DNA of 64,000 bases, from positions 1 to 64,000 of the forward strand of contig JAFIEG010000008.1 of NCBI GenBank assembly GCA_020832665.1. Reading direction: 5' to 3'. Below, one piece after another: positions 34,101 through 61,667 of this stretch. A model generated the notes under the pieces. The model was not told where the DNA came from. It saw only the letters and a list, made by a program, of their open reading frames with translations, and did not search any database. How positions within the stretch are numbered: the first letter of the stretch is position 1; each line of letters starts with the position of its first letter. This DNA comes from Pararhodobacter sp. Its GTDB lineage: Bacteria; Pseudomonadota; Alphaproteobacteria; Rhodobacterales; Rhodobacteraceae. The position numbers were made by a program, and so were the translations under genes.

Positions 34101-34103
34101 ACC

Positions 34104-35384: not shown

Positions 35385-35400
35385 TTCGCCTCGCGACTAC

Positions 35401-38628: not shown

Positions 38629-38639
38629 CGGGAATATCA

Positions 38640-39335: not shown

Positions 39336-40558
39336 TCGGTCTTCCATCGCCGGCACTCGTCATCGGCGCTGGCCCGGCGGGGCTCATGGCCGCCGATACA
39401 ATGCTCGCCGCGGGCCTTCCCGTCATCGTCGCCGAGGCAAAACCCTCACCGGCGCGAAAGCTGCTGATGGCAGGGAAATCCGGGCTCAACCTCACCAAAG
39501 ATGAACCCTTTGAGCGCTTCATCGCCCGGTATGATGAGGCCGCCCCATGGCTCGCACCCATTATCGCGCGTTTCGGACCGCCCGAAATCATGCGCTGGGC
39601 GCAAAACCATGGGCAAGACGTGTTCACTGGTAGTTCCGGGCGGGTGTTTCCCCGCGCCATGAAAGCCTCGCCGCTGCTACGCCGCTGGCTGAAGGATCTG
39701 GCCGCGCGCGGGCTCGATCTGCGCCTGCGCTGGCGCTGGGCGGGATTTCGCGGCGATGCCCTCGTTTTCGACACCCCACAGGGCGAAGCGCTGCTCAATC
39801 CCGCCGTCACCGTGCTGGCGCTCGGCGGCAAAAGCTGGTCGCGGCTGGGCTCCGATGGCGCTTGGTTGCCGTGGCTGGAGAAAAAAGGGGTCAAGATCAC
39901 CCCCTTCGCGCCCGCAAATATGGGTTTTCGCATCAACTGGTCGGCGCATATGCAACCCCATTTCGGCGCTCCGGTGAAAAACCTGCGCCTCATGGCCGGC
40001 GCGCAAACCAGCCGCGGCGAGATCGTGATCACATCCAAGGGTATCGAGGGCGGCGGCCTCTACCCGCTGGCGAAAACCCTGCGCTGCGGTGCTCCGCTGT
40101 TGCTCGATCTCTTCCCCGATCATGACGAAACCCGCCTGCGCGCCAGGCTCGCCGCCCGCCCGGCGCGCGAAAGCTCCACCGCCCGGCTGCGCAAGGCGCT
40201 GCGCCTCGATGCTGCGCGCCTGGCGCTGGTGCTCGAATGCGCCCGCCCCCTGCCGCGCGACCCGGCGCAACTGGCAGCACTGCTCAAGGCGCTGCGGGTG
40301 CCGCTGGGCCCACCCGCCCCCATTGACGAGGCGATCTCGGTCGCCGGCGGCATCAACCGCGCCGCGCTGAATGATGATCTGATGCTCAAGGCCCTGCCAG
40401 GCATCTTTGCCGCCGGCGAGATGCTCGATTGGGAGGCGCCAACCGGTGGCTATCTGCTCACCGCCTGCCTTGCCACCGGGCTTCATGCCGGTCGCGCGGC
40501 CGCGCGCTGGTCAATAGCGCAGCGCCACGGTGCTGACGATCAACCCGCCCACGGCTGA
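39332..40558 (+). CDS. HI0933/YhiN-type FAD-dependent oxidoreductase
   Basis: A 408-residue flavoprotein of the HI0933 (YhiN/BaiN-like) group. It starts with the FAD loop ALVIGAGPAGLMAADTMLAAG and the diagnostic KLLMAGKSGLNLTKDEP near residue 45. The end has the second FAD contact GIFAAGEMLDWEAPTGGYLL near 370. Substrate unknown; related proteins reduce C=C bonds or act in RNA modification. The ATG at 39332 overlaps the dnaQ stop (ATGA), suggesting coupling; an ATG at 39314 would also be possible. It is convergent with the phosphopantetheinyl transferase, overlapping it by 48 bases. Confidence 0.88.
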   Translation: MIGLPSPALVIGAGPAGLMAADTMLAAGLPVIVAEAKPSPARKLLMAGKSGLNLTKDEPFERFIARYDEAAPWLAPIIARFGPPEIMRWAQNHGQDVFTGSSGRVFPRAMKASPLLRRWLKDLAARGLDLRLRWRWAGFRGDALVFDTPQGEALLNPAVTVLALGGKSWSRLGSDGAWLPWLEKKGVKITPFAPANMGFRINWSAHMQPHFGAPVKNLRLMAGAQTSRGEIVITSKGIEGGGLYPLAKTLRCGAPLLLDLFPDHDETRLRARLAARPARESSTARLRKALRLDAARLALVLECARPLPRDPAQLAALLKALRVPLGPPAPIDEAISVAGGINRAALNDDLMLKALPGIFAAGEMLDWEAPTGGYLLTACLATGLHAGRAAARWSIAQRHGADDQPAHG

Positions 40559-41215
40559 ATACCGCCCCGTTATGCATTCCCCGGCGCGAAACGGTGCCAC
40601 ATCTTCCATGAAGCGCGCGCAGAACGCGCCCCGCCTGGCATCCAGCGCCACCTCAATCACCTCGAAACCGAAAAGCCGCAAGCTGAGCGGATATTGCGCC
40701 TTGTAGACGCATTCCTTGATGCTGAAAATCGTCCGAGCTTTCAGCCCGCCATTTTCGCAGCCGGCGATAGCCGCGCGCTCCGATTCCAGCAGAACGCTGT
40801 CATGCAGCTCGGCCGGCAAGGCCCGATCTTCCTCGATATCCAGACCCAGCGATTGCAACCCGCCTTGCCGCCGACCCAGCACCGCTATCGCCACGCCACC
40901 GTCATGGCTGATCGAGCCACAAAAGCCCTCGGGCCAGAACGGTGCGCGGTTTGTGCTGCTGGCCACTGCGAATGGCGCCACCCCAAGCGCCGCCTGCGCC
41001 CGGCGCAGCGCCAGCCGTCCAGCGGCGAACTCGGCCCGCCGTTTCGGCACCATCCGGCCCAGCCCGTCACCCTCGGCGCCGATCAGAATCGACTCGCCAC
41101 CCTCGCCAATCCGCGCCAGCCCCAGCCCCAGCGGCAAATCACGCGCGAAAAGGCCCCGCACCTGCTCCAGCAGAGCCAATGCCGCAGTATCAGAATGGCC
41201 CGGCCCCGCGCCCAA
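40511..41215 (-). CDS. 4'-phosphopantetheinyl transferase (Sfp/EntD type)
   Basis: A 234-residue enzyme that attaches phosphopantetheine from CoA to carrier-protein serines. Visible motifs: FCGSISHDGGVAIAVLG near residue 98, the magnesium-binding GLDIEED near 123 and FSIKECVYKAQYPL near 163. The size and the KEC-x-YKA signature fit the EntD-like branch used for NRPS/PKS activation. It lies 6 bases after the NRPS gene on the same strand, so it should activate the PCP and ACP of this cluster. Confidence 0.92.
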   Translation of the reverse strand: MGAGPGHSDTAALALLEQVRGLFARDLPLGLGLARIGEGGESILIGAEGDGLGRMVPKRRAEFAAGRLALRRAQAALGVAPFAVASSTNRAPFWPEGFCGSISHDGGVAIAVLGRRQGGLQSLGLDIEEDRALPAELHDSVLLESERAAIAGCENGGLKARTIFSIKECVYKAQYPLSLRLFGFEVIEVALDARRGAFCARFMEDVAPFRAGECITGRYSAVGGLIVSTVALRY

Positions 41216-41221
41216 ACGCCC

Positions 41222-44200
41222 TCACCCGGCCTGGTTCATCCGCCCGGCGCGCATTGCCCGGCGCCGCGCCATCGCCGCGCGCCGCGCCTGCCCGGCGCCG
41301 GAAGCATCTTCGGCACCATTCGGGCGCTCCGGTCCGTCGTCATCTGCATCGCTGCCGGGCAGCGGTCGCAACTTGCCATCGACATGCGCGGCGAAGTCCG
41401 AGAGCACCGGAAAACGGAAGATATCGGTGATCGAGAGTCCCGGGAGCGCCAGCTTCTCACGCATCTGGCGATGGGCATGAACTGCCAGCAGAGAATGCCC
41501 GCCCAGCGCAAAGAAGCTGTCCTGCGCGCCCACCTGCTCGACCCCCAGCACCGCCTTCCAGATCGCCGCAACCTGCGCCATGGTGTCGCTGCCTGCGCCG
41601 ATTCCAGCCCCCGGCGAGGCGACAGCCGGCACTGGTCTGGCGGCCTCGCGCGGCGATGGCAGCGCGTTGCGGTCGATCTTCTTGTTCGGCGTCAGCGGAA
41701 AGCGTTCCATCGCCACGAAGATCGACGGGCACAGCGCCGCCGGAAGGCTTGCCGCCGCCTGTGCGCGCAGCAAGGCCTGGTCATTCGCGCGCGGGCCGCT
41801 GACATAAGCCACCAATTGCCCTTCGCCCGCTGCGCTGTTGTCTGCGCCGCGCATGATCACTACCGCCTGTTCGATGCCCTCGGCGGCCTCCAGCACTTGC
41901 TCGATCTCGCTCGCCTCGGCGCGATGGCCGCGGATCTTGATCTGCCCGTCGGCGCGGCCCAGAAACGCCAGCCGCCCCGCCCCATCCATCCGCACCCGGT
42001 CGCCGGTGCGGTAAAGCCGCCCCGCGCCGCCCAGGTGCTCCGGCACGGGCACGAAGCGCTCGGCGCTCAGCGCCTGCTGGCGCCAATAGCCGCGCGCCAC
42101 CCCCGCGCCGCCGATCCACAGTTCGCCCGGCACGCCCAGCGGGACCGGGCGCATCCGTTCGTCCAGAACATGCAGCGTGGTATTGGCGATTGGGCTGCCC
42201 AGCAATGCCACCGGTTCGCCCGTGTCCGCCGGCCCGCTGGTTGACCAGATGGTGGTTTCGGTTGGCCCGTACATGTTGAGCACAGCGCCGCCGCAGGCAT
42301 CGTCCAATTCGCGCGCCAGCGCTGCCGGCAGCGCCTCGCCGCCGATCAGCGTCTGGCGCAGCCCGCCAAGCGCCGCGCGCGCACCGTCATCGGCCATCAG
42401 CAGCCGCGCAAAGGACGGCGTGCATTGCAGATGCGTCACCGCGTGGCGCCTGATCTGCGCGGCGACGGAAAAATCGTCCTCGCCTGGCGCCGAGGGCCGA
42501 TTGCTACGCGCCAGCACCTCGGCCAACGGGTAAAGCCCCTCCAGCACCTGCTCGGTGGGAATGCCGTAATCGATCAGGCAGGCGATCTCGCTCACCCCGA
42601 TACGTTTGAGCTGTTCCACCCGCGCCAGGCAATCCTCGACGGTGCCGAACAGCCCCGAATCGTTGAAATAGCGGTTGAAGGCATAATCCAGCACGCCCTC
42701 CACCTCGTCGGCACTGAGCGAGCTCAGGTCGATATCCATCGGGCTGGTCGCGCCTTTGGGGCGCTTGAAGGCCGGGAACGACCAGGCAAACTGCTTCACC
42801 AGCCCCGCCGCCGAGGAAAGATAGCTCTTCATCGGCCCGCGCGCGGTCTCGCGCGCCGCTTCGTGCGAGCGGGCCACGAAAGTATGCAGCATCAGCGTGA
42901 CCTTGAAATCGGCCGGGTCGCGCCCACCCTTGCGAAGCGCCTCGTGATAGATGCCGATCTTCTGTGCCACCTCATCGATCGACTGCCCCAGCAGATGGGT
43001 CAGCACATGCGCGCCAATCTCGCCCGCTTCGCGCCAGGTATCGGGGTTGCCGGCGATGGTCAGCCACAACTCCAGCTCTTTCGAGACCGGCCGCGGCAGG
43101 GTGGTGATCGGCTCCATCTCGCCGCCGCCGCGGTCGAAATCAACCGCCTCGCCGCGCCACAGACGGCGCACCTTGTCGATGGTGTCGAACATCGCCACCT
43201 TGTTGTGCGGGTGGCGGTTCTCCGGGCGCAGAACGAAATCCACCGGGTGCCAACCTGATGCGATGCCCAGCCCGACGCGCCCGCCGGTCAGATTGTCGAT
43301 CATCGCCCATTCCTCGGCGATGCGCACCGGGTGGTGCAGCGGCGCCACCACCGAGCCCGAGCGCACGCCGATATTGCGCGTCACCGCCGCCACCGCCGCG
43401 CCGGCCACCGAGGGGCTGGGATAGGGCCCGCCAAAGGCGTGGAAATGGCGCTCGGGCACCCAGACGGCGCTGAAGCCGTGATTGTCGGCAAAGCGCGCGC
43501 CTTCCAGCAGCAGCTCGTATTTCTTCGGCCCCGGCCCGTCATCATTGCCCCAGTAGAAGAGGCTGAAATCCATCGGTTTTTCCGAAACCGTCACGCCCGG
43601 CGCCGAAAGCGTGAGGCGGTCCTCATCCGAGGTCAGCACCAGCTTGAAGCCGCGCGCAAGCGTCCAGAACAGCTCCAGCACCGAGATGTCGAAATTCAGC
43701 GAGGTCAGCGCGAGCCATACGCCGCCCGCCTCATGCTCGATGCGCGCATCCATTCCGGTGAAGAAATTGACGACATTGCAATGCTCGACCATCACGCCCT
43801 TGGGCTGGCCGGTCGAGCCCGAAGTATAGATCAGATAGGCCAGGTTATCGGGCCCGGCGCCGTTTTCCGGCGCGCTTTCCGGCGCGCTTTCAAGCCGCGT
43901 GTCTGTGTCGATGACCAGTAATTCGGCCGCATGCGCGGGCAGGCTGTCCACCAGCGCCGCCTGCGTAACGATCACCGGCGCACCGCTGTCGCGCAGATAG
44001 TGGTCAAGCCGCGCCGCCGGATAGGCCGGGTCAAGCGGCACATAGGCGCCGCCGGCCTTCATGATCCCCAGCGCGCCGATCAGCATGTCGGGGCTGCGCC
44101 GCGCGCATAGCGCGACCGGCACATCGGGCCCCACCCCCATCCCCTGCAGTACATGCGCCAGCCGGTTGGCGCGCGCGTCAAGCTCGCGATAGGTCAGTTG

Positions 44201-45892
44201 GCGGTCCTCGAACACCAGCGCCGTGGCATCGGGGCTGCGCGCCACCTGCGCCTCGAACAGTTGGCTCAGCGTGGCACTCTCGTCATAGGGATGCGCAGTG
44301 TCATTGAGCGCGGCGAGCACCGCCCGTTCGGGAGGTGCGAGCAGATTCATCGTATCAAGCGGCGCCTCGCCATCGGCGCCCGCCAGATGCGCGATCCGCG
44401 CCTGCCAGATATCCAGCGCGCTTGCGTCGATGCGCCCCAGATCGGCCACCAGCCGCGCCGCGCCGCTTTCTTCACCCACCACGCAAAGCGCACAGCCGGG
44501 GATGGAATCACCGTGTTCCGACAGACCCAGCGCCGGCACCGCCAGCGGCGAAAGCCCGGGCTCGCGCGCCACCAGATCGCGTGCAAAACCGGGGTGCCGG
44601 TTGGTCATCTCTGCGCAGGCATCGATGGCGCTCTCAAGATCGGCCAGGCAGCCCCCCGCGGGCTGCAACGGCACAAAGGGGGCGATGTCATCGGGCGCCA
44701 GTGCAATCGTGGCGGCCAGCGCGGCATTGGCAAAGGCCATGCCCGATGCGCCGCCATCCAGCCCGGCATGGGCGGCCAGCACCGCCGCCGCCCGCCGTGC
44801 GCTCACTCCATCGGGCAGGTCGCGGCTGACGATGTCGCTGTCCGCCCTGTCGCCCGCCGCCGCGCCGCCCTCGCGCAGCCCCAGCGGCCGCGCCGGCGCG
44901 AACCCGGCCAGAACCTTGCGCCAATACCCTTCGCCGGCGGCAATGCGCGCCAGCGCCTGTTGCGGGCCTTCCATCTGCGGGATTGGCAGTTGCTCGCCCG
45001 GGATGGCAATCTGTGGTGGCGATACCGGCAGGCCCTGCAGGCAGGTCAACGCCTCGATCCGCAAGGTACCTTCGCCGCAGGCCACGCTCAGCCCGGCGTC
45101 ATCGACTTCCAGCACCGTAAAAGGGGCGGCCCCTTCGGGCTGCAGCATGGCCGGTTCGGCCCGGCCCACGGCGTAAACTCCGTTTGCGGTTTGCAGCTTG
45201 GGCAGGGTCAGAGGGTTGCGGTAACTGCCGTGATCGAGCGCCCTGACAAACGCCGCCAGCGCCGGTGCCGGGCGCGAGAAGTCCAACCGCCCAGCCCCCT
45301 CGGGCCTGTCGTGGCGCCGATGCAGGCTTCGCTGGGTCATGTCCTGCTTGTGCAGGCGCAAATCGCCCGTCTCGATCGCCGCCACCACGGCCGGAAAGGA
45401 ATCGAGCCCGCGCGCGAAGCAGCGCGCATTGAGGCTCAGCGCGGTTTCGCCGGGCTCGATATCGAAAATCACCTGCTCGACGATATCGCCCATATCCACG
45501 CCCTGGGTGATCATGTGCCAGCTCACGCCCCAGCGTGTCTCGCCCTCCAGCAGCCCCCAGACAGGCGCGTTCAGCCCGGCATGGCGCGGCAGCGGCCCGT
45601 CATGGAAGTTGATCGCCCCGGCGCGCGCCAACTCCAGCACCGGCTGAGCGATCAGCCGCGTGTTGCCGATCGAGAAAAGCCAGTCGAAACCCTCAGGCAC
45701 TGCCTCGGCCAGCCGCATCTCCAGCCCCGGCCCGGGCGCCAGAACCGGCATGGCCGCGCCCTCGGCCCAGCTTGTCACCTCGGCATTGTCGCTGACCACC
45801 GCCACTACCTTGTGGCCGCGCTCGACAAGCAGTTTGCCACATTGCACCAGCAGGCTTTCATGGCCGATGAGAAGGGCGTTGATAGGCTTCAT
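41222..45892 (-). CDS. NRPS: formyltransferase - truncated condensation - adenylation split by luciferase-like monooxygenase - PCP
   Basis: A 1556-residue single-module synthetase. Residues 1-290: formyltransferase-like domain with INFHDGPLPRHAGLNAPVW near 94. Residues about 310-500: only the C-terminal part of a condensation domain (FVPLQPA, NRHPGFARDLVAREP); no HHxxxDG motif. Residues 545-760: adenylation domain, first part (YTSGSTGQPKG 689-699, NFDIS 733). Residues 773-1115: inserted FMN-dependent luciferase-like monooxygenase, MupA/Atu3671 type (FSLFYWG, WVPERHFHAFGG). Residues 1125-1430: rest of adenylation (NMYGPTETT 1206, YRTGD 1294, PNKKIDR 1402). Residues 1440-1505: PCP with Ser1467 in GGHSLL. 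The tail is Arg-rich; there is no thioesterase. The specificity code reads about D-I-L-Q-L-G-M-I-W, the glycine type. Confidence 0.93.
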   Translation of the reverse strand: MKPINALLIGHESLLVQCGKLLVERGHKVVAVVSDNAEVTSWAEGAAMPVLAPGPGLEMRLAEAVPEGFDWLFSIGNTRLIAQPVLELARAGAINFHDGPLPRHAGLNAPVWGLLEGETRWGVSWHMITQGVDMGDIVEQVIFDIEPGETALSLNARCFARGLDSFPAVVAAIETGDLRLHKQDMTQRSLHRRHDRPEGAGRLDFSRPAPALAAFVRALDHGSYRNPLTLPKLQTANGVYAVGRAEPAMLQPEGAAPFTVLEVDDAGLSVACGEGTLRIEALTCLQGLPVSPPQIAIPGEQLPIPQMEGPQQALARIAAGEGYWRKVLAGFAPARPLGLREGGAAAGDRADSDIVSRDLPDGVSARRAAAVLAAHAGLDGGASGMAFANAALAATIALAPDDIAPFVPLQPAGGCLADLESAIDACAEMTNRHPGFARDLVAREPGLSPLAVPALGLSEHGDSIPGCALCVVGEESGAARLVADLGRIDASALDIWQARIAHLAGADGEAPLDTMNLLAPPERAVLAALNDTAHPYDESATLSQLFEAQVARSPDATALVFEDRQLTYRELDARANRLAHVLQGMGVGPDVPVALCARRSPDMLIGALGIMKAGGAYVPLDPAYPAARLDHYLRDSGAPVIVTQAALVDSLPAHAAELLVIDTDTRLESAPESAPENGAGPDNLAYLIYTSGSTGQPKGVMVEHCNVVNFFTGMDARIEHEAGGVWLALTSLNFDISVLELFWTLARGFKLVLTSDEDRLTLSAPGVTVSEKPMDFSLFYWGNDDGPGPKKYELLLEGARFADNHGFSAVWVPERHFHAFGGPYPSPSVAGAAVAAVTRNIGVRSGSVVAPLHHPVRIAEEWAMIDNLTGGRVGLGIASGWHPVDFVLRPENRHPHNKVAMFDTIDKVRRLWRGEAVDFDRGGGEMEPITTLPRPVSKELELWLTIAGNPDTWREAGEIGAHVLTHLLGQSIDEVAQKIGIYHEALRKGGRDPADFKVTLMLHTFVARSHEAARETARGPMKSYLSSAAGLVKQFAWSFPAFKRPKGATSPMDIDLSSLSADEVEGVLDYAFNRYFNDSGLFGTVEDCLARVEQLKRIGVSEIACLIDYGIPTEQVLEGLYPLAEVLARSNRPSAPGEDDFSVAAQIRRHAVTHLQCTPSFARLLMADDGARAALGGLRQTLIGGEALPAALARELDDACGGAVLNMYGPTETTIWSTSGPADTGEPVALLGSPIANTTLHVLDERMRPVPLGVPGELWIGGAGVARGYWRQQALSAERFVPVPEHLGGAGRLYRTGDRVRMDGAGRLAFLGRADGQIKIRGHRAEASEIEQVLEAAEGIEQAVVIMRGADNSAAGEGQLVAYVSGPRANDQALLRAQAAASLPAALCPSIFVAMERFPLTPNKKIDRNALPSPREAARPVPAVASPGAGIGAGSDTMAQVAAIWKAVLGVEQVGAQDSFFALGGHSLLAVHAHRQMREKLALPGLSITDIFRFPVLSDFAAHVDGKLRPLPGSDADDDGPERPNGAEDASGAGQARRAAMARRRAMRAGRMNQAG

Positions 45893-45893
45893 G

Positions 45894-46862
45894 TCACTGC
45901 TCCGGACCGATACGCATTGCCAGGCTGTGTTTCACCAGATCGCGGAAAAAATATGGCGGGTTTCGGCTGTTGCCGGAACCAAGTGCCACCCTCAGCCCGT
46001 GCAGCCCCAGCCCTGCAAGCTGCGCGAGCGTGGCCAGCCCAGCATAGACCCGCCCGTGATTCTTGGCAAAGTAATGCCAGCGTGAATCAAACCAGTAACC
46101 TGGCACGCGGCGCCATTCCTTCATACCGGTGCTGGCCGAGCCGATATGCATCACCCGGCTTTCCACCACGTAATGGGTCTTCCAGCCCTTCCGCGCGCCG
46201 CGCAGCATCAGGTCGGTTTCCTCGAAATACAGGAAGAACCGCTCGTCGAAGAGCCCGATCGCGTCCAGCATGTCCTGGCGCATCATCACGCTGGCGCCCG
46301 CCAACCAGTCAACCGGTCCGGTCTGCGCCGGCACCGGCAGGGGCACCACATGCCGGCTCAGCAGACGGGTCACTGGCCCGGTATGCGCCGCGCCCTCGAA
46401 TTCGGACATCATCGAGGGAAAGCGAAAGGCGGTGACATGCGGCTCACCCTCGGGGCCGTGAATATGGCTGCCGGCAAAGCCCGCGGCGGGGTTTGCCTGC
46501 ATGTGCCGCAACAGCGCGGCGATCGCATCGGGGGCGGGGAAGGCATCGGAGTTGAGGATATGCACGTAATCGGGGCGCGCGCCGTCGGGCAACCCGGCGC
46601 GGATGCCAAAATTGTTGCCCGCGCCGAAACCGCCATTGTGTCCCGATTGCAAAACCCGCACCCGCCCGCCCTGGCTGTCACCCGCGCCGCCTTCGCCGAG
46701 TGCCGCGCAAAGTCGCTCGAACGAGCCATCCTGCGAATCGTTGTCAATCACGGTGATGGCGCCCTCGATGCCCTCCATTGCGCGCTGCGCCGCAGCGACC
46801 GCCTTGAGCGTCATCTCGGCGGTGCGCCAATTCAGGATGATGCAGTGAACTTGCGCGCTCAT
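45894..46862 (-). CDS. Family 2 glycosyltransferase (rhamnosyltransferase-like)
   Basis: A 322-residue GT-A enzyme. It opens with CIILNWRTAEMTLKAV, then VIDNDSQDGS near residue 37 and the nucleotide/metal region HILNSDAFPAPDA near 103. WLAGASVMMRQD and FLYFEETDLMLRGARKG near 215 are typical of dTDP-rhamnose-type transferases. It overlaps the PKS stop by 4 bases and ends one base before the NRPS start, so it is locked into the biosynthetic operon. It may glycosylate the NRPS-PKS product or belong to the polysaccharide pathway next door; sequence alone cannot decide. Confidence 0.9.
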   Translation of the reverse strand: MSAQVHCIILNWRTAEMTLKAVAAAQRAMEGIEGAITVIDNDSQDGSFERLCAALGEGGAGDSQGGRVRVLQSGHNGGFGAGNNFGIRAGLPDGARPDYVHILNSDAFPAPDAIAALLRHMQANPAAGFAGSHIHGPEGEPHVTAFRFPSMMSEFEGAAHTGPVTRLLSRHVVPLPVPAQTGPVDWLAGASVMMRQDMLDAIGLFDERFFLYFEETDLMLRGARKGWKTHYVVESRVMHIGSASTGMKEWRRVPGYWFDSRWHYFAKNHGRVYAGLATLAQLAGLGLHGLRVALGSGNSRNPPYFFRDLVKHSLAMRIGPEQ

Positions 46863-53391: not shown

Positions 53392-54936
53392 TCAAAGCAC
53401 GCTGCGCGGGCCCGGCGCGGCCGGCTTCGTGCTGGTGGCGTCATCGTTATCTGCCGTTCCCGTGCCCTCGCCCGTGCCCATGCCCAGCGTCACGCGCGCG
53501 CGCCTCGGCTGCGTTCGCTCCTCTTCTGCCTTCTCGACGCTGCGCCGCATTTCCTCGGCATGGCCCAGAATGGCCCCGCCCATCAGCAGCGTGAAGGGAA
53601 TAAGCGTGGCATTGGGCAACAGATCCAGCAGATTTGCAGCGTAGATAAGCACCATCGCCGAAACTGCAAAGGGCAGCTGGGGCGCCAATTCCCGGCGCGA
53701 TTGCCACCAGAGCGAGAACAGCGGCAGCGCCAGCAGGCCGAACAGCGCGATATAGCCCAGCCACCCATAATGGCCGATGGTGATGATCCACTGGCCGTCA
53801 ACAATAACGCGGGTATTGCCGGTGAGCAGATCATACGGCACGAAACGGCCCCACCCGCCCCAGCCGAAAAGCGGCTTGTCGGCGACATGCGCGATGACCC
53901 GGTCCTCGTTCATGAAGCGGAATTCCAGCGATTGCGCGCGGTCGGGGTTGAAACGCTCAAGCTGCGCCACGATGGCATCGGTGGGCACAAGCCCGGCGCC
54001 GCGCAGCATGGGATAGGCCAGCACTAGAACCGAAACCGCCACTCCGAAGAGCAGCTGCACCCGCCGCGGCATGAAGAGCAGCAGCGGCAGCAGCATGAGC
54101 GCCAGCATGATCGGCCCCAGCGAACGGCACAGCAACAACAGCACGAAAAGCCACAGGCTGAGAAACAGCATCCGGCCCTGGCGCTCGGGCGGCGTCGTGA
54201 TGGTCAGCGCGACCGCGGCCGCGAAGGCCTTGAAGGCAAACAGTGCCACCCACAGCCCGTGCGGCATGAACACGAAGGGCCTGTACCCCCCCTCGCGGAT
54301 CGCCTGCAGGAAATTGTGCTGGAAGAAGCCATAAACCCAGGTGTGAAGCTGCGGGCTGATGCGCATCTCAAGCAGCATCGGCAGCGTGTAGATCAGCGCG
54401 GCAATGACCAGCGCGCGCAGCATTTCCCTGATTGCCGCTTCGCTGCGCAGGAATTCCCGCGCCAGGAAGAAGGGCAACAGGATGATGAATTGTCGCGCCA
54501 GCTCCGAAAACGAGTCATAGGCCCTGAGTGCCGGAAGTTCGACGCGCGCCAGCCCGGAGGGGTCGAAAACCGAGAATCCACCATAGTTCTGGATACCGAA
54601 GCGAACCGGTTCCAGATTGTTGAGCACCGTCACCGCCGGGCTGAGCACGAAAAGCACCATGAGCACCCGCCCGACCCATGAGCGTGGCAAAAGCCGCGGA
54701 ACCCGGCCGAGCATCACCACGATGACGACAAAGACCGTCAGATTGGGGATCGACACCTTGTTGAAGGCCGGGATGCCGGGAAAGTTGATCTCGGAAAGCT
54801 GCGGCAGCAGCATGTAACCGCCCAGGATTGACCAGATCAGCGCCCGTTCCAGCGTCATCACCCGAAACATGATGACGATCACCAGCGGCCAGGCCAGAAG
54901 CGCCGACAAGGCGAAGATATTGCCGATATTCAGCAT
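53392..54936 (-). CDS. O-antigen polymerase/ligase-like membrane protein
   Basis: A 514-residue protein with about ten to twelve helices and a large loop before the last group (GWGGWGRFVPYDLLTG near residue 355), the layout of Wzy-type polysaccharide polymerases and O-antigen ligases. ATG 54936 gives a helix directly (MLNIGNIFALSALLAWPLV). The C-terminal 45 residues are polar and Gly/Thr-rich. The stop lies about 110 bases before the PKS start on the same strand, and the start is divergent from a WecG/TagA transferase. A role in chain polymerisation is inferred from topology and neighbours. Confidence 0.78.
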   Translation of the reverse strand: MLNIGNIFALSALLAWPLVIVIMFRVMTLERALIWSILGGYMLLPQLSEINFPGIPAFNKVSIPNLTVFVVIVVMLGRVPRLLPRSWVGRVLMVLFVLSPAVTVLNNLEPVRFGIQNYGGFSVFDPSGLARVELPALRAYDSFSELARQFIILLPFFLAREFLRSEAAIREMLRALVIAALIYTLPMLLEMRISPQLHTWVYGFFQHNFLQAIREGGYRPFVFMPHGLWVALFAFKAFAAAVALTITTPPERQGRMLFLSLWLFVLLLLCRSLGPIMLALMLLPLLLFMPRRVQLLFGVAVSVLVLAYPMLRGAGLVPTDAIVAQLERFNPDRAQSLEFRFMNEDRVIAHVADKPLFGWGGWGRFVPYDLLTGNTRVIVDGQWIITIGHYGWLGYIALFGLLALPLFSLWWQSRRELAPQLPFAVSAMVLIYAANLLDLLPNATLIPFTLLMGGAILGHAEEMRRSVEKAEEERTQPRRARVTLGMGTGEGTGTADNDDATSTKPAAPGPRSVL

Positions 54937-55187
54937 TGCCGGGCCGTGCTCCCGGCGCCTGGACAGGCGGTTGCTGGCGGGTTGCGGGGCTGCAAGGGCC
55001 TGCCTCTTGCCGGACGCGGGCGCGGCCTGTTGGCGCACCCTGGCTTCGCTTTGCGTTGCGATACGGGTTCCTGCGCGGCCAGCGCAACCCTCTGCGGGGT
55101 CTTTCGCCGACTGCAAGGGCGAGTATAACAAGGCGATTGGCAATTGTCTGCCGAAACCTGTCGCATCAACCGAAAGCCGGGCCGGAT

Positions 55188-55943
55188 TTGGAGTTTCGCT
55201 TTCCGCCACAACGCATCGCGGTCAACCTGCCCGACCGGGCGGCGCTGATGAGCCGGGTCGCGGCGCTACTGGCGGCGGGCGAGGGTTTCGCCTTGGCCAC
55301 GATCAATCTCGATCATCTGGTAAAGCTGGTGCGCGAGCCTGAATTTCGCGACATCTATGCCGCGCAGGACCTGGTGGTGGCCGATGGCAACCCCATCGTC
55401 TGGCTGTCGCGCCTGGCGCGGCGGCCGGTGACGCTGGTGCCGGGCTCGGACATGGTGGTGCCGCTGGCCCGGCTCGCGGCGCAGCAGGGGGTGCCTGTGG
55501 CGCTGGTTGGCGCCACCGCGCCGGTGCTCGACGCCGCCGCGAAGGCGCTGAGCGCGCGCCTGCCCGACCTGCAGATCGCCGCGCGGATCGCCCCGCCCAT
55601 GGAGTTTGATCCGCAAGGCGCCGATGCGCGCGATATCCTCGCCACGCTTGAACATTCGGGTGCGCGGCTGTGCTTTCTGGCGCTGGGCGCGCCGAAGCAA
55701 GAGGCCCTTGCCGCGCTGGGCCGTCAGCTGGCGCCAGGCATCGGCTTCGCCTCGATCGGGGCGGGTCTCGATTTCCTGGCCGGCAGCCAAAAGCGCGCGC
55801 CGCGCTGGGTGCGCGCCATCGCCATGGAGTGGCTATGGCGTATGCTGGGCAATCCGCGCCGGCTGTTCAGGCGCTATGCGCTATGCGCGCTCATCCTGCC
55901 CGGTCAGGCGCTGGCCGCCTGGCGGCTGCGCCGCGAGGGGTAA
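55188..55943 (+). CDS. WecG/TagA/CpsF family glycosyltransferase
   Basis: A GT26-family enzyme, about 251 residues, that adds N-acetylmannosamine(uronate) or glucose to a lipid-linked acceptor. Signatures in order: ATINLDHLVKLV near residue 38, VVADGNPIVWLSRL near 63, and the diagnostic LGAPKQEALA near 165 followed by GAGLDFLAGSQKRAPRW. The reading frame extends upstream, but that part looks non-coding. TTG 55188 gives the normal family length, although its ribosome site is weak, so the start is uncertain. Divergent from the polymerase-like gene. Confidence 0.88.
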   Translation: MEFRFPPQRIAVNLPDRAALMSRVAALLAAGEGFALATINLDHLVKLVREPEFRDIYAAQDLVVADGNPIVWLSRLARRPVTLVPGSDMVVPLARLAAQQGVPVALVGATAPVLDAAAKALSARLPDLQIAARIAPPMEFDPQGADARDILATLEHSGARLCFLALGAPKQEALAALGRQLAPGIGFASIGAGLDFLAGSQKRAPRWVRAIAMEWLWRMLGNPRRLFRRYALCALILPGQALAAWRLRREG

Positions 55944-56113: not shown

Positions 56114-57109
56114 TCACTTGTATTCGATCAGTGTTGAATCGCGCCGCGTCAGGCGGCGCAGGTGAAAGCGCAGCACGCCAACCGCCTCGGGGAACTTGCC
56201 CAGCGTGTTGAAAAAGGCCGCCCGCCAGCCCATCCGCCCGCGCAATCGCCAGATTTGCGCCGGATAGGCCAGCAACAGAAGCGCCGCCACCGGGTGCCAT
56301 GCCAGCGCCAGAAACACCGTCGCCCCCGGCAGCGCCAGCCCCCAGCCCAGGGCGCGGCGGTATTCGCGCCGCTGAAACGGTTCGTCGCGGCTGGCAAAGC
56401 GCGTGGCGCCCTCGGCAAAGGCATGGCCGGCGCGTTCCACCCGCCGCCACCACTGGCCAAAGCGCGATATCGCTGCGTCATGCAGGGTCATCTCGGCGTC
56501 GATGCGCCAGATCTTCCAGCCGGCCTGGCGCAGCCGCAGGCACAGCTCGGGCTCTTCGCCGGCGATCAGATCGTCGCGGAAACCGCCCGCTGCGGCCAGC
56601 GGCGCGTAGCGCATGAGCGAATCGCCGCCGCAGGCGTTGGCCTCGCCCTCCGGTGTGTCCCACTCGGCGTCGCACAGGGCATTGTAGATCGAGGCCTCGG
56701 GGAAGCGCTCGCGCCGGCGCCCGCAAACCACCGCAACGCCCGGGTTTTCCGCCAGAAAACGCGATGCGCTGTCGATCCAGCCCGGTTGCAGCGTGCAATC
56801 GCCATCGATGAACTGCACCAGCGCCGGCGGGTCGGTTGCCAGCGCCCGCAGCCCGGCATTGCGCGCCCGCGCAGCGGTGAAGGGCTTTGCCATGTCCAGC
56901 GCGATGACCTTGGCGCCGGCGGCGATGGCGGCATCTGGGCTGCCATCGGTGGAGCCCGAATCGACATAGATGATGCGGCGCGCCTGGCCTTGCAGCGATC
57001 GCAGGCAGGCGATCAGCCGCGCCCCCTCGTTGCGACCGATCACAACGGCATCGATCACGGCATCGGCTGCGATATAGACAGGCTCAGCGCTGTCGGACTG
57101 CCGCGACAT
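56114..57109 (-). CDS. Family 2 glycosyltransferase with C-terminal membrane segment
   Basis: A 331-residue inverting transferase. The GT-A core has DAVVIGRNEGARLIACL near residue 19, YVDSGSTDGS near 48 and the DxD-type FIDGDCTLQPGW near 100. The acceptor-side motif GEEPELCLRLRQAGW near 181 is followed by a QWWRR-like element. A hydrophobic C-terminal stretch (GATVFLALAWHPVAALLLLA) anchors it to the inner membrane. It probably extends a polyprenyl-linked repeat unit. It lies 6 bases after the Wzz-type gene and is probably cotranscribed with it. Confidence 0.9.
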   Translation of the reverse strand: MSRQSDSAEPVYIAADAVIDAVVIGRNEGARLIACLRSLQGQARRIIYVDSGSTDGSPDAAIAAGAKVIALDMAKPFTAARARNAGLRALATDPPALVQFIDGDCTLQPGWIDSASRFLAENPGVAVVCGRRRERFPEASIYNALCDAEWDTPEGEANACGGDSLMRYAPLAAAGGFRDDLIAGEEPELCLRLRQAGWKIWRIDAEMTLHDAAISRFGQWWRRVERAGHAFAEGATRFASRDEPFQRREYRRALGWGLALPGATVFLALAWHPVAALLLLAYPAQIWRLRGRMGWRAAFFNTLGKFPEAVGVLRFHLRRLTRRDSTLIEYK

Positions 57110-57115: not shown

Positions 57116-58408
57116 TCAGCTCGCCATGATCTGCAGGGCCAGCACCAGCGCCGCGGCGGCCAGAATGCCGGCGCCGAAGAAGACCCATGCCATCCGCCGT
57201 CGGCGCGTCTCGCGTGGCGATGGAGTCAACGGAATGCTGATAACCGGGCGCAGCTGCAACTCGCGTTCCATCCGCTGCGCCGTGCGCAGCACCGGGTTCA
57301 TGGCCTCGACGGCGAAGGCAATGGCGACCCCGCCCATCAGCCCGGCGATGGCGCCGAGCATGGCGATGGCCCGGCGCGAGCGCGAAACCGGGTATTCGGG
57401 CGTGATCGCGGCTTCGAGCAGAACGAAACGCTCCGATTGCTCATCGACCTCGATGCGCTGACCCAGCTCGGCGGCGCGGCGCTGCTGCGCGATGGTGGCA
57501 AGCTGCGCCTGCATCTGTTCCATGCGCCGCTCCAGATTGCCCAATTCGCGGGCAATGCCGGGTGCTTCCTGAAAACGGTCCCTGGTCTGGGTGATGCGCA
57601 GATCGATCAGCCGCATGTCGCCTTCGCGCTGGGCGATCTGCTCGTCAAGCTCGGCGATGCGTCTGCGGCTGACCGCACGGCCGGCATCGGCCTCGAGCAC
57701 GCTGCGCTCGCCCTGCAGTTGCGAAAGCTGCCGCTCGAGCGAAAGCCGGCTTTCCTCAAGCCGGTGCAGATCATCGCGCCTGAGCGTCATGGCGCCGGGC
57801 AGAAGCGCCTCGTTCTCGATCTGGAAGGCGATGATCTCGTCTTCAAGATCGCTGATCGCCGCTTCCAGCCGCTCTTCTTCCTGGCGGTAGAATGACAGCG
57901 CCTGCTGCGCGCGCTCGCGCGCGGCGCTGGCGCTCTGGGCGACAACGGATTCGGCCAGTTCGTTGGCGATGTCGGCCACAACCTCGCGATCGCCCAGATT
58001 GACGGTGATGATGATCGCCGAAAGGGCGCCGCCGGTGGGCATGCCGGGCCGCGAGGGCGCGGCGGCAACGCTGTCGATGTTGATCGCCTGGCGCAGCGCC
58101 GCGACCCGCTCGACGCTGCTTAGCGCCGTGCCTTCGAACAGGGCATGGCGCTCGGCAAGCTCCAGCAGATTGTCGCGTGCCATCAGCCGCTGTTCGATCA
58201 TCTGCGCCCGGCGCTGCCCGCCGCCGGTGCCGTCTTCGCCGACAACGGGGTTGATGACCTGCAGCACGGTGATGGCCGAATAGACCCGCTCGGTGGAAAG
58301 CGCGGCGACCAGCCCGCCCAGCATGCCCAGAAAGCCGAAAAAGGCGATCAGCCGCGCACGCCGGCGCAGCCAGCTGACGAATTCCTGATAGGACTGGATC
58401 GGACCCAT
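57116..58408 (-). CDS. Wzz/GumC-type polysaccharide chain-length and export protein
   Basis: A 430-residue PCP-type protein. The first membrane helix is LIAFFGFLGMLGGLVAAL near residue 19, followed by a periplasmic Wzz domain start (ERVYSAITVLQV). A long coiled coil spans about 150-310 (QQALSFYRQEEERLEAAISD and further heptads). The second helix is WVFFGAGILAAAALVLAL near the C-terminus. It would set polymer length together with the CpsD-like ATPase encoded 14 bases upstream. There is no outer-membrane exporter in view. Confidence 0.9.
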   Translation of the reverse strand: MGPIQSYQEFVSWLRRRARLIAFFGFLGMLGGLVAALSTERVYSAITVLQVINPVVGEDGTGGGQRRAQMIEQRLMARDNLLELAERHALFEGTALSSVERVAALRQAINIDSVAAAPSRPGMPTGGALSAIIITVNLGDREVVADIANELAESVVAQSASAARERAQQALSFYRQEEERLEAAISDLEDEIIAFQIENEALLPGAMTLRRDDLHRLEESRLSLERQLSQLQGERSVLEADAGRAVSRRRIAELDEQIAQREGDMRLIDLRITQTRDRFQEAPGIARELGNLERRMEQMQAQLATIAQQRRAAELGQRIEVDEQSERFVLLEAAITPEYPVSRSRRAIAMLGAIAGLMGGVAIAFAVEAMNPVLRTAQRMERELQLRPVISIPLTPSPRETRRRRMAWVFFGAGILAAAALVLALQIMAS

Positions 58409-58422: not shown

Positions 58423-59322
58423 TCAGTTCCGGCCGCGGCGGCCGCGGTCTTCGGATTTGTTGAGCACCACACCCAGAAGCGGCGCGCGCCCTTCCAGAAG
58501 CGCCTCGCTATCGGTGATGTCGCGCGCCTGACTGCGCGTGCCGTCGGCAACCAGCAGCACGGCATCGAGCTGGCCCAGCAGCGCCGTCGAGACACCGCTT
58601 TCCAGCAGCGGCGGCATGTCCATCAGCAGCACATCGGGCGCCAGCGTATCGAGCAGCCGGCGCAGCATGTTGGCCAGCGCCGGGCTCTGGGCGATGTCGC
58701 CGGCGTTGTCGAGCGCGCGATCGTTGAGCATGAGCGCCAGATTGTCGCCGATGCGGCGCAGCACGGCCTCGGGTGGCAAGGCGCCAGCGACAAGCTCGCC
58801 CAGCCCCGGCGGCGCGGCCAGTTCCAGATTTGTGGCCAGGCGCGGGGCGGCAAGGTCCATGTCGGCGAGCAGCACGCGCATGTAGTCGAGCCGGGCAATG
58901 CTGGCGGCCAGCCCGGCGGCCACGAAGGTGGCGCCGCCGCCGCGATGGGGCGCGCAGACACCGATGCGCCGCCAGCCGTGCTCCTGCAGCGCCGGCATGA
59001 GTTGCGAACGCAGCCGGTCGAGCGCCGCGGCCGCCTCACCGCGCCGGTCGATGGAATGCAGCGCGCCGTGCCTTGCGGGAAGCTGGTCGGTGCTCTCGGC
59101 CAGTTTTGGCAGCGCTGCCCAGGCCTGGGCGACGGCTTCGCGCCTGGCCGGCGGCAATACCCCGGTTGCGGCACGCCCGCCGACACGCCCCTGCAACATC
59201 GGCGCATGCGCCATGCCGCGCGGCTCGGGCAGGGGCACCACGCGGGCGCTGCTCTCGGCCTCGTCGCCTTCCTGGCGCTGTTGCCAGCCCAGCCTTTCTT
59301 CAAGAATTCGCGTATTGACCAT
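58423..59322 (-). CDS. CpsD/CapB-like polysaccharide ATPase with degenerate Walker A
   Basis: A 299-residue relative of bacterial tyrosine kinases that partner Wzz proteins. The nucleotide fold is visible: GVCAPHRGGGATFVAAGLAA near residue 130 occupies the Walker A position, VLLADMDLAAPRLA near 160 is Walker A', and DVLLMDMPPLLES near 230 is Walker B. The invariant Walker A Lys is replaced by Ala, and the C-terminus (DRGRRGRN) has no Tyr cluster. Kinase activity is therefore doubtful; it may act as a non-catalytic regulator. It heads the unit with the Wzz protein and a GT2. Confidence 0.8.
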   Translation of the reverse strand: MVNTRILEERLGWQQRQEGDEAESSARVVPLPEPRGMAHAPMLQGRVGGRAATGVLPPARREAVAQAWAALPKLAESTDQLPARHGALHSIDRRGEAAAALDRLRSQLMPALQEHGWRRIGVCAPHRGGGATFVAAGLAASIARLDYMRVLLADMDLAAPRLATNLELAAPPGLGELVAGALPPEAVLRRIGDNLALMLNDRALDNAGDIAQSPALANMLRRLLDTLAPDVLLMDMPPLLESGVSTALLGQLDAVLLVADGTRSQARDITDSEALLEGRAPLLGVVLNKSEDRGRRGRN

Positions 59323-59586
59323 TGATTTAACCAGTACCGGATTTCGGCTTGAACATAGCGGCTTGTTACGCGCAAAGCCTGTCACAATTAGGGCAAGACA
59401 GCGGCGCGGTTTTTTCATTCGCGGGTTTCTCGGCTCCGCCGCAGCCGGGCGGGCGGTGACGGGGGCGACACTGACGTGCCCTTTGCCTTGCACGCCATCG
59501 CCCGGGCCCCGAGTTTTCTTGAAATGGCCGCAATCAGGGGCTAGCGCAAGCCCGGCAGGATCGAGGCGCCAAGCGGGGAGGACCTA
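59323..59586. promoter_or_regulatory. Divergent intergenic region in the polysaccharide locus
   Basis: 264 bases separate the CpsD-like gene from the divergent GT4 gene. The part nearest the CpsD-like gene (59323-59410) is AT-richer and probably carries its promoter. I could not assign boxes or operators. Confidence 0.3.
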
Positions 59587-60807
59587 GTGAAGATCGGTTA
59601 TGTCGTCAATACCTACCCCTCGCCCTCGCACAGCTTCATCCGCCGCGAGATCCGCGCGCTCGAGCGCCGCGGGCTGAGCATCACGCGGCTGGCCATGCGC
59701 CCCCATCCCGGCGCGCTGGGCGATCCTGCCGACATTGAAGAAGACGCAGCGACCGAGCATGTGCTGGCGCAGGGCGCGCTGGCGCTTCTCGCGGCACTTC
59801 TGGGCGCGGCGCTGGGTGCGCCCTCGCGCTTTGTCTCGGCGCTGGGGCTGGCGATGCGCGCGGGCCGTGCGGTGCCGGGCGGGCGGTTGCGCCATCTGGT
59901 CTATCTGGCCGAGGGCGCCTGGCTGGCGCGGCGCGCGCGGGCGCTGGGGCTGGCGCGGCTGCATGCGCATTTCGGCACAAATTCGGCGGCGGTGGCGATG
60001 CTGGCGCATGCGCTGGGTGGGCCGCCCTACAGCTTCACCGTGCACGGCCCCGAGGAGTTCGACCGACCCGAGGCCATCGCGCTGGGGCTGAAGCTGGCGC
60101 GCGCTGATTTCGCGGTGGCGATTTCCAGCTTCGGGCGCAGCCAGCTCAGCCGCTGGGTGGCCCCGCGCCACTGGAAGCGGCTGCATGTGGTGCATTGCGG
60201 CATCGAGCCCGGCCACTACGCCGAGCCCGCGCCGCTGCCGCCCCCGCAGCCGCTGCGGCTGGTCAATATCGGCCGTTTCGCCGAACAGAAGGGGCAGCTT
60301 TTGCTCATCGAGGCGCTGGCCGAGGCGGTACGGCGCGGGGTCGATCTGCAGCTGACGCTGCTGGGCGACGGCCCCCTGCGCCCGCAGATCGAGGCCGCCA
60401 TCGCCGCGAGCGGGCTTGAAAGCCGCGTCACCCTCGCCGGCTGGCTGGACGAGGCCGGCGTGCGCGGCGCCATCGACGACTCGCATGCGCTGGTGCTGCC
60501 ATCCTTTGCCGAGGGGCTGCCGATGGTTGTGATGGAGGCCATGGCCGCCGCGCGGCCGGTGATCGCCACCTGGGTGGCCGGCATCCCCGAACTGATGCGC
60601 CACGGCCGCACCGGCTGGCTGGTGCCGGCGGGCGATGCCGAGGCGCTATGCGACGCCATTTGCGAATTGTCGGTGGCCGGGCCCGAAAAGCTGGCAAGGA
60701 TGGGCCGCTCCGGGCGCGCGCGCGCGCTGACTCGCCACGATATCGACGCCTCGGCGGAAAAGCTGGCGGCGCTCTTCGCTCAGCGCCCGCGCGCCCAGCC
60801 GGGCTGA
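59587..60807 (+). CDS. Family 4 glycosyltransferase
   Basis: A 406-residue GT-B retaining transferase starting with GTG 59587 behind a strong GGGGAGG. The N-terminal half has YVVNTYPSPSHSFIRREIRA and the FTVHGPEEFDRP segment near 155. The donor half starts VNIGRFAEQKGQLLLIEAL near 225 and ends with the family's EX7E-type FAEGLPMVVMEAMAA near 305. This domain order resembles colanic acid and succinoglycan transferases. Its last 28 bases overlap the convergent GT2 gene. Confidence 0.92.
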   Translation: MKIGYVVNTYPSPSHSFIRREIRALERRGLSITRLAMRPHPGALGDPADIEEDAATEHVLAQGALALLAALLGAALGAPSRFVSALGLAMRAGRAVPGGRLRHLVYLAEGAWLARRARALGLARLHAHFGTNSAAVAMLAHALGGPPYSFTVHGPEEFDRPEAIALGLKLARADFAVAISSFGRSQLSRWVAPRHWKRLHVVHCGIEPGHYAEPAPLPPPQPLRLVNIGRFAEQKGQLLLIEALAEAVRRGVDLQLTLLGDGPLRPQIEAAIAASGLESRVTLAGWLDEAGVRGAIDDSHALVLPSFAEGLPMVVMEAMAAARPVIATWVAGIPELMRHGRTGWLVPAGDAEALCDAICELSVAGPEKLARMGRSGRARALTRHDIDASAEKLAALFAQRPRAQPG

Positions 60808-61667
60808 TCGGCCCGCGCCGCGCAGCGCAGCCTGACCGCCAGCGCCACAAGCGCATAGGCCACAAAGCCCGCCGGATCACGCAGCGCGAGCGCCGCCAGC
60901 GCGCCTGCACCGGGCCGGGTGGGGCCGGCATTGGCCATCAGCGCCGGGTACAGGCGGGCGATCTCGGCCACGCCCCGGTCCTGCCGGGCGCGCACGCGCA
61001 CCAGCCGCGAAAAACCCTCGATCATCGGCCAGTCATAAGTTGCGGGCAGGCGGTGACGCTCTTGCGGGGTGAAATGCAGCCGCACGAAGGTATCGTCGGA
61101 TATGATTTCGGGGAAGGCACCCCAGCGCGCGCGCCCGGCGGCGTTCACCGCGAACAGGCCAAAGCCCGGCGCCCCTTCGGCGACAAAGGGCAGGCGCCGC
61201 CAGAACCGGGCATAGGCGCGCGCAAAGGCACCGTGGGCGGTAATGCGCGGCGTGCCGCTGGCGTAGCAGGGCGCGCCGTGATCGAGCCGCGCCGCGATCT
61301 GTGCCAGCAGCGGCGGCGAGAGTGTGACATCGGCATCGAGATAGGCGCGCATCGGGTAAAGGGCAGCCGCATCGCCGGTATTGAGCGCGCCGGGCTTGCC
61401 GGGTTTCGCGCGCTCAATCACATCCAGCTGCCAGCCGCGCGCGGCGTATTCGCCGGTCATGGCGCGGGCGCGGGCGGCGGTGTCGTCGCGGCAGCCATTG
61501 GCCACCACCACCACCTGCAGGCGAACGCCGTCAGAGGCCAGCAGCGCGCGCAGGCAGGGCTCAATAAAACCGGCCTCGTTGCTCGCGGGCACGATGACGC
61601 TCAGCGTCGCCTCCGCCGGCACCGCCCCGCCGCCCGTGCTTGCGCCGCTATCGGGACCGGCGCTCAC
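60780..61667 (-). CDS. Family 2 glycosyltransferase
   Basis: A 295-residue GT-A enzyme: LSVIVPASNEAGFIEPCL near residue 22, VVANGCRDDTAARAR near 54, the DxD in AYLDADVTLSPPLLA near 111, and a possible Q/R-x-x-RW-like element around YDWPMIEGFSRL. A short hydrophobic C-terminal segment (FVAYALVALAVRLR) may tether it to the membrane. It overlaps the glycosidase-like gene by 4 bases, so both are in one unit with the SGNH-like gene. Confidence 0.88.
   Translation of the reverse strand: MSAGPDSGASTGGGAVPAEATLSVIVPASNEAGFIEPCLRALLASDGVRLQVVVVANGCRDDTAARARAMTGEYAARGWQLDVIERAKPGKPGALNTGDAAALYPMRAYLDADVTLSPPLLAQIAARLDHGAPCYASGTPRITAHGAFARAYARFWRRLPFVAEGAPGFGLFAVNAAGRARWGAFPEIISDDTFVRLHFTPQERHRLPATYDWPMIEGFSRLVRVRARQDRGVAEIARLYPALMANAGPTRPGAGALAALALRDPAGFVAYALVALAVRLRCAARADQPGWARGR

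Follow-up and report, generated by a model that had tools for sequence, protein, structure and literature searches.

In the myxothiazol and melithiazol assembly lines, a monooxygenase (MOX) is inserted between core motifs A4 and A5 of an adenylation (A) domain and is reported to hydroxylate the alpha carbon of the glycyl residue (PMC10204066); the carbinolamide is then said to cleave, the amide leaving and glyoxylyl staying on the carrier (PMC10204066, PMC11342130). Papers are cited here by PMC number. MupA, the namesake of this monooxygenase family, alpha-hydroxylates a thioester bound to an acyl carrier protein (ACP) in vitro (PMC10952193). PtxE, composed of a formyltransferase (FT), a glycine A domain and a peptidyl carrier protein (PCP), is proposed to hand formylglycine to a ketosynthase (KS) in phthoxazolin biosynthesis, with precedents in oxazolomycin and conglobatin (PMC5764310). 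Formyltransferase loading modules are also described for discodermin in PMC12858407, whose account of the calyxamide domains includes, in a legend, a formyltransferase as well as an oxygenase. Here we describe a nonribosomal peptide synthetase (NRPS) of Pararhodobacter sp. (Rhodobacteraceae), encoded in a stretch of 64,000 nucleotides (assembly GCA_020832665.1, contig JAFIEG010000008.1, positions 1 to 64,000; hereafter the window), in which a formyltransferase and an A domain split by a monooxygenase are joined in one protein. With close to an even chance of being right, we read it as the loading module of a two-protein peptide-polyketide assembly line, which would start from a formylated, alpha-hydroxylated glycyl unit and end in release by a thioesterase (TE), probably onto an exopolysaccharide sugar.

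Results

The NRPS has a glycine-type pocket and a monooxygenase between A4 and A5

The domains, conserved residues, pocket, insertion site and gene linkage reported below were read from sequences and structural models. The open reading frame (ORF) of the NRPS is uninterrupted on the minus strand from an ATG start at 45892 down to 41222 (1556 codons). An earlier annotation made from the letters of the window alone, the sequence-only reading, had given the order of domains from formyltransferase to PCP, and this order is correct, since the Pfam and NCBIfam matches fall in it: in the Pfam scan the first AMP-binding stretch is at residues 546–761, Bac_luciferase lies between two AMP-binding stretches, AMP-binding_C matches below its cut-off and PP-binding is at residues 1440–1504. 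No TE was found in the protein by Pfam.

The protein was compared with 89 related loci, comprising 80 genome loci (the best 80 of 579 relatives, picked by likeness to the window and biased towards Rhodobacteraceae) and nine plasmid loci. Alignment of the window protein with those of 79 of the 80 genome loci (L120 being omitted for its length) showed that the carrier serine is kept in 79/80 members. As the architecture is conserved in the 80 aligned members, and its front half in 74/199 genomes of the family, it is not a chance reading. A predicted model of residues 532–1510 had a mean predicted local distance difference test score (pLDDT) of 84.3 and a predicted template modelling score of 0.60, so the packing of the domains in it is uncertain.

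The pocket residues, located via core motifs by eye and not by superposition on PheA, read DILQLGMIWK (D735, I736, L739, Q1156, L1182, G1184, M1207, I1215, W1216 and K1405). Among the 80 members the pocket varies only at positions 299 and/or 330 (DILQMGMIWK in 46, DILQLGMIWK in 18, DILQFGMIWK in 11, DILQLGMVWK in two, DILQYGMIWK in two and DILQFGMVWK in one). Module 2 of LgrA, which we take to load glycine, was aligned as a glycine-code control; its pocket letters differ from DILQ and it gave no support. In a survey of 2051 A domains (PMC12283262), the four glycine domains that bear a MOX all carry DILQLGMIWK. The glycine-type pocket of the sequence-only reading is borne out by this identity, and the result that would have counted against it, a pocket clearly not of glycine type, was not seen.

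The monooxygenase scored 474.1 bits against TIGR04020 at residues 776–1126 (curated NCBIfam cut-off 244.45) and is inserted between A4 (FDISVLE, residues 734–740) and A5 (NMYGPTE, residues 1206–1212). This site is the one stated for myxothiazol and melithiazol (PMC10204066), in agreement with the likeness drawn in the sequence-only reading. Comparison with the Ox domain of PuwE (6KET) gave 45% identity, a target template modelling score of 0.92, a root-mean-square deviation of 2.7 and a sequence E value of 1.6e-103. His816, His853 and His966 are found in 80/80 aligned members, and His818 and His854 in 79/80. Judged by family score, fold and conservation, the domain is a monooxygenase of the type that uses flavin mononucleotide (FMN), and FMN-dependent alpha-hydroxylation is its predicted reaction.

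An intact formyltransferase precedes a condensation-domain remnant

Formyl_trans_N was matched at residues 77–165, and Formyl_trans_C at residues 201–284 with 20.6 bits, slightly below the Pfam cut-off of 21.1. Asn95 and His97 are each kept in 78/80 aligned members and Asp133 in 79/80, the remainder being gaps; these three are the presumed catalytic triad, as in methionyl-tRNA formyltransferase. All three are intact in the window protein. The AlphaFold2 model of residues 1–545, covering the formyltransferase and the stretch after it, had a mean pLDDT of 95.7, and the top matches shown by Foldseek were of formyltransferase type, with ArnA and methionyl-tRNA formyltransferases (FMT) first.

Between the formyltransferase and the A domain, none of the 61 members scanned, the window protein among them, matched a Pfam family, which rules out a whole condensation (C) domain. 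A profile built from this stretch of the 61 members matched the end of the C domain and the C-A linker of solved C-A structures (McyB best at 2.6e-12; Txo2, Txo1 and PvdL are among the others). Farther up the C-lobe there was a weak match, collinear with this one. The HHxxxD motif was found within residues 290–545 in 0/80 aligned members, and in place of a full two-lobe condensation domain (PF00668) with HHxxxDG the N-lobe is absent. On this sequence evidence, residues 305–540 are a remnant of the C-lobe. The partial condensation domain of the sequence-only reading thus stands as such a remnant, by its profile match to the C-domain end, and as one devoid of the motif.

A polyketide synthase gene adjoins the NRPS gene in nearly all related loci

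A tblastn search over plasmids returned 17 records covering at least 80% of the NRPS protein, from Ruegeria, Parasedimentitalea, Paracoccus, Shinella, Aminobacter, Rhizobium, Methylobacterium and other genera. In 12 of the 17, the NCBI annotation at the match is ‘MupA/Atu3671 family’, a label that refers to the monooxygenase only and gives no product. The match in Paracoccus marcusii NZ_CP143307.1 (248005–252187) is in nine pieces, with nine hypothetical and three monooxygenase-type annotations, and this copy is apparently decayed or badly sequenced. On a Streptomyces plasmid (L048:12618–18412), the gene of an NRPS with a MupA/Atu3671-type monooxygenase stands immediately ahead of one for a flavin reductase, as would suit a two-component oxygenase.

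In the window, genes for a type I polyketide synthase (PKS) and a family 2 glycosyltransferase (GT2) lie upstream of the NRPS gene on the same strand, and a phosphopantetheinyl transferase (PPTase) gene lies downstream. This operon and its polysaccharide setting had been overlooked by the sequence-only reading. The catalytic motifs of the PKS were found by eye, namely the KS Cys, GHSMG of the acyltransferase (AT), the Tyr of the ketoreductase (KR), an HxxxGxxxxP-like motif of the dehydratase (DH) and GFSGG of the TE. Across the related loci a PKS adjoins the NRPS gene in 87/89 (L128, with a carrier-domain match only, was not counted, and in L119 the DNA upstream is almost entirely missing): on the same strand it is upstream in 77 and downstream in three, and on the other strand upstream in six and downstream in one. 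The GT2 gene is between the two in 75/89 loci, and the PPTase gene is next downstream of the NRPS gene in 74 of the 86 loci with room for it. In ten of the 11 other genomes of the genus (G001–G011), PKS and monooxygenase occur together or are jointly missing; G003, whose assembly is 80% complete, departs from this in having the PKS alone.

In six loci (L042, L044, L045, L153, L154 and L156) the PKS gene comes directly after the NRPS gene, both on one strand. In L042, from Deinococcus, the formyltransferase is a separate gene ahead of a protein of the form A-LLM-A-PCP, LLM being the luciferase-like monooxygenase. The exit of the PKS is a TE in the window, L044 and L153, C-A-PCP-TE in L045, a C domain in L042, and C-A, at the cut end of the fetched stretch, in L156. 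The common core is therefore FT-A[MOX]-PCP with KS-AT-KR-DH-ACP and a variable exit, which fits a loading module. Together, the adjoining PKS in 87/89 loci and the order of genes in these six suggest that the NRPS is probably a loading module for the PKS and not a terminal module like MtaG.

The FT-bearing form is concentrated in one family

With a profile of the formyltransferase and remnant at E 1e-60, matches were found in 74/199 evenly drawn genomes of the family (own included; the match in G354 lacks the first 189 positions) and in 3/192 genomes of a class sample (own included, all three in Rhodobacteraceae), by a profile built mainly from the own family that distant members may escape. 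These results speak against a class-wide spread and indicate that the form with FT and remnant is concentrated in one family. The sequence-only reading had called the pairing of a formyltransferase with a split A domain unusual; in this family it is not rare.

In a phylum sample, TIGR04020 was above its cut-off in 24/397 genomes (own included), and all 11 loci outside the family were opened. FT-A[LLM]-A is encoded beside a PKS in six of them; FT is lacking in L155 and L161, which are C-A[LLM]-PCP forms, and L160, L162 and L163 have other arrangements. The protein of L155 (7360–12918) is C-A[LLM]-methyltransferase-PCP, without FT and beside a PKS, and may be a C-domain relative of the window system.

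A tree of the monooxygenases, with 37 rows, placed all 30 FT-linked rows on one side with weak support (58/79), L042 with its separate FT gene among them; four rows sit on long branches. A single origin of the FT-bearing form, by one change, is compatible with this tree but not shown by it. The closest named row to the window is Rhodobacteraceae bacterium. L054 (Hydrogenophaga pseudoflava) and L123 (a metagenome-assembled genome of Myxococcales) encode FT-A[LLM]-PCP proteins outside Alphaproteobacteria; L054 falls inside the Rhodobacteraceae-type rows and L123 is their first branch, and these positions suggest horizontal transfer.

Polysaccharide genes flank the NRPS/PKS pair in most related loci

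Four polysaccharide markers were taken from the window: the Wzy-like, chain-length and tyrosine kinase genes and GT2b, a GT2 gene counted where it did not overlap the operon GT2 (L068, where the GT2b match is the operon's own GT2, was not counted). At least one marker was found in 77/89 loci and in 61 of the 68 loci of at least 24 kb, 51 of which have two or more; leaving out GT2b, the counts were 70/89 and 55/68. As a control, the Wzy-like gene was found to be single-copy in 10/12 genomes of the genus (own included), with none found in the other two, and it lies within 300 bases of the PKS gene in 9/9 genus genomes having both. Polysaccharide genes also flank the NRPS/PKS pair in annotated records of Ruegeria, Aminobacter, Deinococcus and Shinella. 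In the six FT-bearing loci outside the family, the window's polysaccharide genes were not found by tblastn, which divergent copies would escape.

The features of the window are collected in Table 1. The ORFs at 59584–60603 (minus) and 60648–61739 (plus) look like antisense frames of glycosyltransferase genes and were excluded as markers. A 591-amino acid protein encoded at 61664–63439 has no Pfam or NCBIfam match, and a tblastn relative of it is present in 37/89 related loci. Beside the cluster, at 29890–39335, are parAB, gidAB, mnmE, rho, aroE, coaE and an exonuclease gene; with parAB, gidAB, mnmE, rho, aroE and coaE as neighbours, the cluster may lie near a replication origin.

Table 1. Features of the NRPS gene and its surroundings in the window (aa, amino acids)
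Feature	Position	Strand	Remark
NRPS protein, 1556 aa, FT – C-lobe remnant – A (N-part) – LLM/MOX – A (C-part) – PCP – basic tail	41222..45892	minus
Formyltransferase domain, about residues 1–300; Asn95, His97, Asp133	44993..45892	minus	Pfam
Predicted condensation-domain C-lobe remnant, about residues 305–540, without HHxxxDG	44273..44980	minus
Adenylation domain, first part, about residues 541–770, motifs up to A4	43583..44272	minus
FMN luciferase-like monooxygenase TIGR04020 (predicted), residues 776–1126, between A4 and A5	42515..43567	minus
Adenylation domain, second part, about residues 1138–1411 (A5 to A10)	41660..42481	minus
Peptidyl carrier domain, residues 1440–1504, Ser1467 within GGHSL	41381..41575	minus
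Type I PKS, KS-AT-KR-DH-ACP-TE, 2156 aa	46859..53329	minus	Pfam; motifs by eye
GT2 glycosyltransferase between PKS and NRPS	45894..46862	minus	Start overlaps PKS stop by 4 bases
Sfp/PptT-like phosphopantetheinyl transferase, directly downstream of NRPS gene	40511..41215	minus
Wzy_C/O-antigen-ligase-like protein	53392..55209	minus	25.8 bits, under Pfam cut-off 31.7
GT2 glycosyltransferase	56114..57109	minus
Chain-length determinant-like polysaccharide protein	57116..58408	minus	TIGR03007 E 1.8e-24, 85.8 bits, under equivalog cut-off 278.85
Polysaccharide tyrosine autokinase-like protein	58423..59493	minus	TIGR03018 E 2e-17, 63.2 bits, under cut-off 230.65
GT4 glycosyltransferase	59587..60807	plus
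GT2 glycosyltransferase	60780..61667	minus

Discussion

A formylated, oxidised glycine unit, already suggested by the sequence-only reading, is the natural prediction from the glycine pocket, the monooxygenase at A4/A5 and the intact formyltransferase residues. By analogy with the FT-A(Gly)-PCP precedents, the alpha-hydroxylation by MOX domains and MupA, formylation would be expected to make the N-acyl glycine on which the monooxygenase acts. The reactions, their order, the number of PKS rounds and the acceptor in the following scheme are those that we infer. The A domain would load glycine onto its own PCP, and the formyltransferase would formylate the glycyl amine using 10-formyl-tetrahydrofolate, taking over the N-acylation that in MtaG-like modules is done by the condensation domain, a domain of which only the C-lobe is left here. 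The monooxygenase would then hydroxylate the alpha carbon with reduced FMN (FMNH2) supplied by a general reductase, and the KS of the adjacent PKS would accept the N-formyl-alpha-hydroxyglycyl unit. The PKS would add one malonyl-type unit, reduce it and dehydrate it. Finally, the TE would release the acyl chain, probably onto a sugar of the exopolysaccharide from the same cluster; it is gene linkage that suggests a sugar as the acceptor. A further idea, which we regard as rather unlikely, is that this widespread NRPS-PKS makes an oxidised, aldehyde-like starter, either N-formyl-alpha-hydroxyglycyl or glyoxylyl, from glycine and a formyl group, extends it and decorates an exopolysaccharide with the reactive acyl group so formed, for which metal binding or cross-linking of the matrix would be conceivable roles.

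Several points weigh against a loading module that feeds the PKS and acylates a polysaccharide. The PKS gene is upstream of the NRPS gene in 77/89 loci, as it is in the window, the reverse of the assumed order, and this PKS-first order, usual in the family, by itself gives a loading role no support. None of the four polysaccharide markers was found in 7/68 long loci; the chain-length gene is about 60–77 kb from the PKS gene, on the same contig, in the genus genomes G005 and G008; and the annotated Aliiroseovarius locus has no surrounding polysaccharide genes and adjoins nitrous-oxide reductase genes. As to the chemistry, alpha-hydroxyglycine amides tend to cleave unless stabilised (PMC10204066), the substrate that MupA required was a beta-keto one (PMC10952193), so the chemistry demonstrated is other than hydroxylation of a formylglycyl thioester, and other luciferase-like enzymes in such pathways are proposed for Baeyer-Villiger-type oxidation (PMC8739492).

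A possible alternative, to which we give a clearly smaller chance, is that a free small molecule is made and that the polysaccharide genes are co-regulated or co-transferred neighbours instead of the acceptor pathway. TE domains usually release free products, and this expectation is joined by the seven long loci without markers, by the six outside-family FT loci where tblastn did not find the window's polysaccharide genes (divergent ones escape) and by the nitrous-oxide reductase genes beside the Aliiroseovarius pair. It is opposed by the linkage of markers in 61/68 long loci, the GT2 gene inside the operon in 75/89, the single-copy Wzy-like gene adjoining the PKS gene in 9/9 genus genomes with both, and the polysaccharide genes around the pair in the Ruegeria, Aminobacter, Deinococcus and Shinella records.

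The hydroxyglycyl unit may also meet a different fate from the one preferred here. In a doubtful but credible variant of the same loading module, formamide would leave and glyoxylyl-S-PCP would be the starter for the PKS, the formyl group being a temporary aid to C-N cleavage by the monooxygenase. Such a cleavage to carrier-bound glyoxylyl is what the myxothiazol and melithiazol carbinolamide is reported to undergo (PMC10204066, PMC11342130), and the MOX-bearing glycine domains of the identical code, DILQLGMIWK, are described as cleaving glycine (PMC12283262). On the other side stands solanimycin B, which retains and extends the hydroxyglycyl unit, though the insertion there is at A8/A9 (PMC10204066).

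It is very unlikely that the formyltransferase acts like ArnA on an amino sugar of the polysaccharide and is merely fused to the NRPS. ArnA and sugar formyltransferases are among its closest solved structures and the setting is one of polysaccharide genes; however, methionyl-tRNA formyltransferases score about equally, the FT is retained in the six outside-family loci where tblastn did not find the window's polysaccharide genes, and in the FT-A(Gly)-PCP precedents the amino acid is the proposed target (PMC5764310).

Terminal amide release, in which glycine would be attached to a chain from upstream and then cut to leave an amide as in MtaG/MelG, was the outcome implied in the sequence-only reading, and we consider it highly improbable. 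The insertion site and code are shared with MtaG/MelG-type domains as these are described, and a PKS gene upstream of the NRPS gene in 77/89 loci would suit a terminal module. However, the architecture is at odds with this outcome, since the protein lacks a complete C domain (HHxxxD in 0/80 and no condensation N-lobe) and a TE, and since the partner PKS in the window begins with a KS and ends with its own TE; the missing N-lobe and the TE on the PKS rule it out as the preferred reading.

Hadacidin is N-formyl-N-hydroxyglycine. A hadacidin-like, metal-binding hydroxamate made by hydroxylation of the nitrogen, for which an FT, an oxygenase and glycine would suffice, has scarcely any likelihood, as among the related domains considered the alpha carbon is the target shown for MupA (PMC10952193) and proposed for PuwE, MtaG/MelG and SolF.

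If the reading as a formylglycine-hydroxylating loading module is true, an initiating role would be added to monooxygenases known from chain release, and a formyltransferase would replace a half-deleted condensation domain. It would also point to a large group of assembly lines, apparently uncharacterised so far, whose members may act on the surface polysaccharides of Alphaproteobacteria, marine ones among others. With two proteins, a glycosyltransferase and a PPTase, the system is small enough to be rebuilt in vitro, which makes the fate of the hydroxyglycyl unit directly testable. Among the matches listed, no description of an FT-A[MOX]-PCP and PKS line or of its polysaccharide setting was found in the open-licence literature, and the words monooxygenase and polysaccharide are absent from the main text of PMC12858407.

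Compared with known systems, the window protein shares with MtaG/MelG of myxothiazol and melithiazol, according to the published description of these proteins and not their sequences, the FMN monooxygenase between A4 and A5 of a glycine A domain; whereas MtaG/MelG end the chain after condensation and leave an amide, the window protein has an FT and a C-lobe remnant before the A domain and a PKS partner. SolF of solanimycin likewise combines a glycine A domain with an FMN monooxygenase, and keeps and extends the hydroxyglycine; unlike that of the window, its insertion is between A8 and A9, in a chain-extending module (PMC10204066). The Ox domain of PuwE (6KET) and MupA belong to the same monooxygenase family, but the former is situated between PKS and NRPS modules and the latter acts in trans, neither within a glycine A domain. 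LgrA, whose initiation module for linear gramicidin is FT-A-PCP, is the best sequence relative of the whole NRPS in the PDB, but it lacks a monooxygenase, shows no C remnant when aligned and has an FT that aligns weakly (17 bits). PtxE, OzmO and CongA have the FT-A-PCP order of the window protein and are proposed to feed a KS, PtxE with glycine, but in the description of PtxE available, unlike in the window, no monooxygenase is named (PMC5764310). No OzmP/CongE-like cyclodehydratase was seen among the Pfam-scanned ORFs of the window, no dedicated search having been made. Formylglycine loading modules and the monooxygenases of MtaG/MelG are thus known separately, and their combination in one initiating module looks new.

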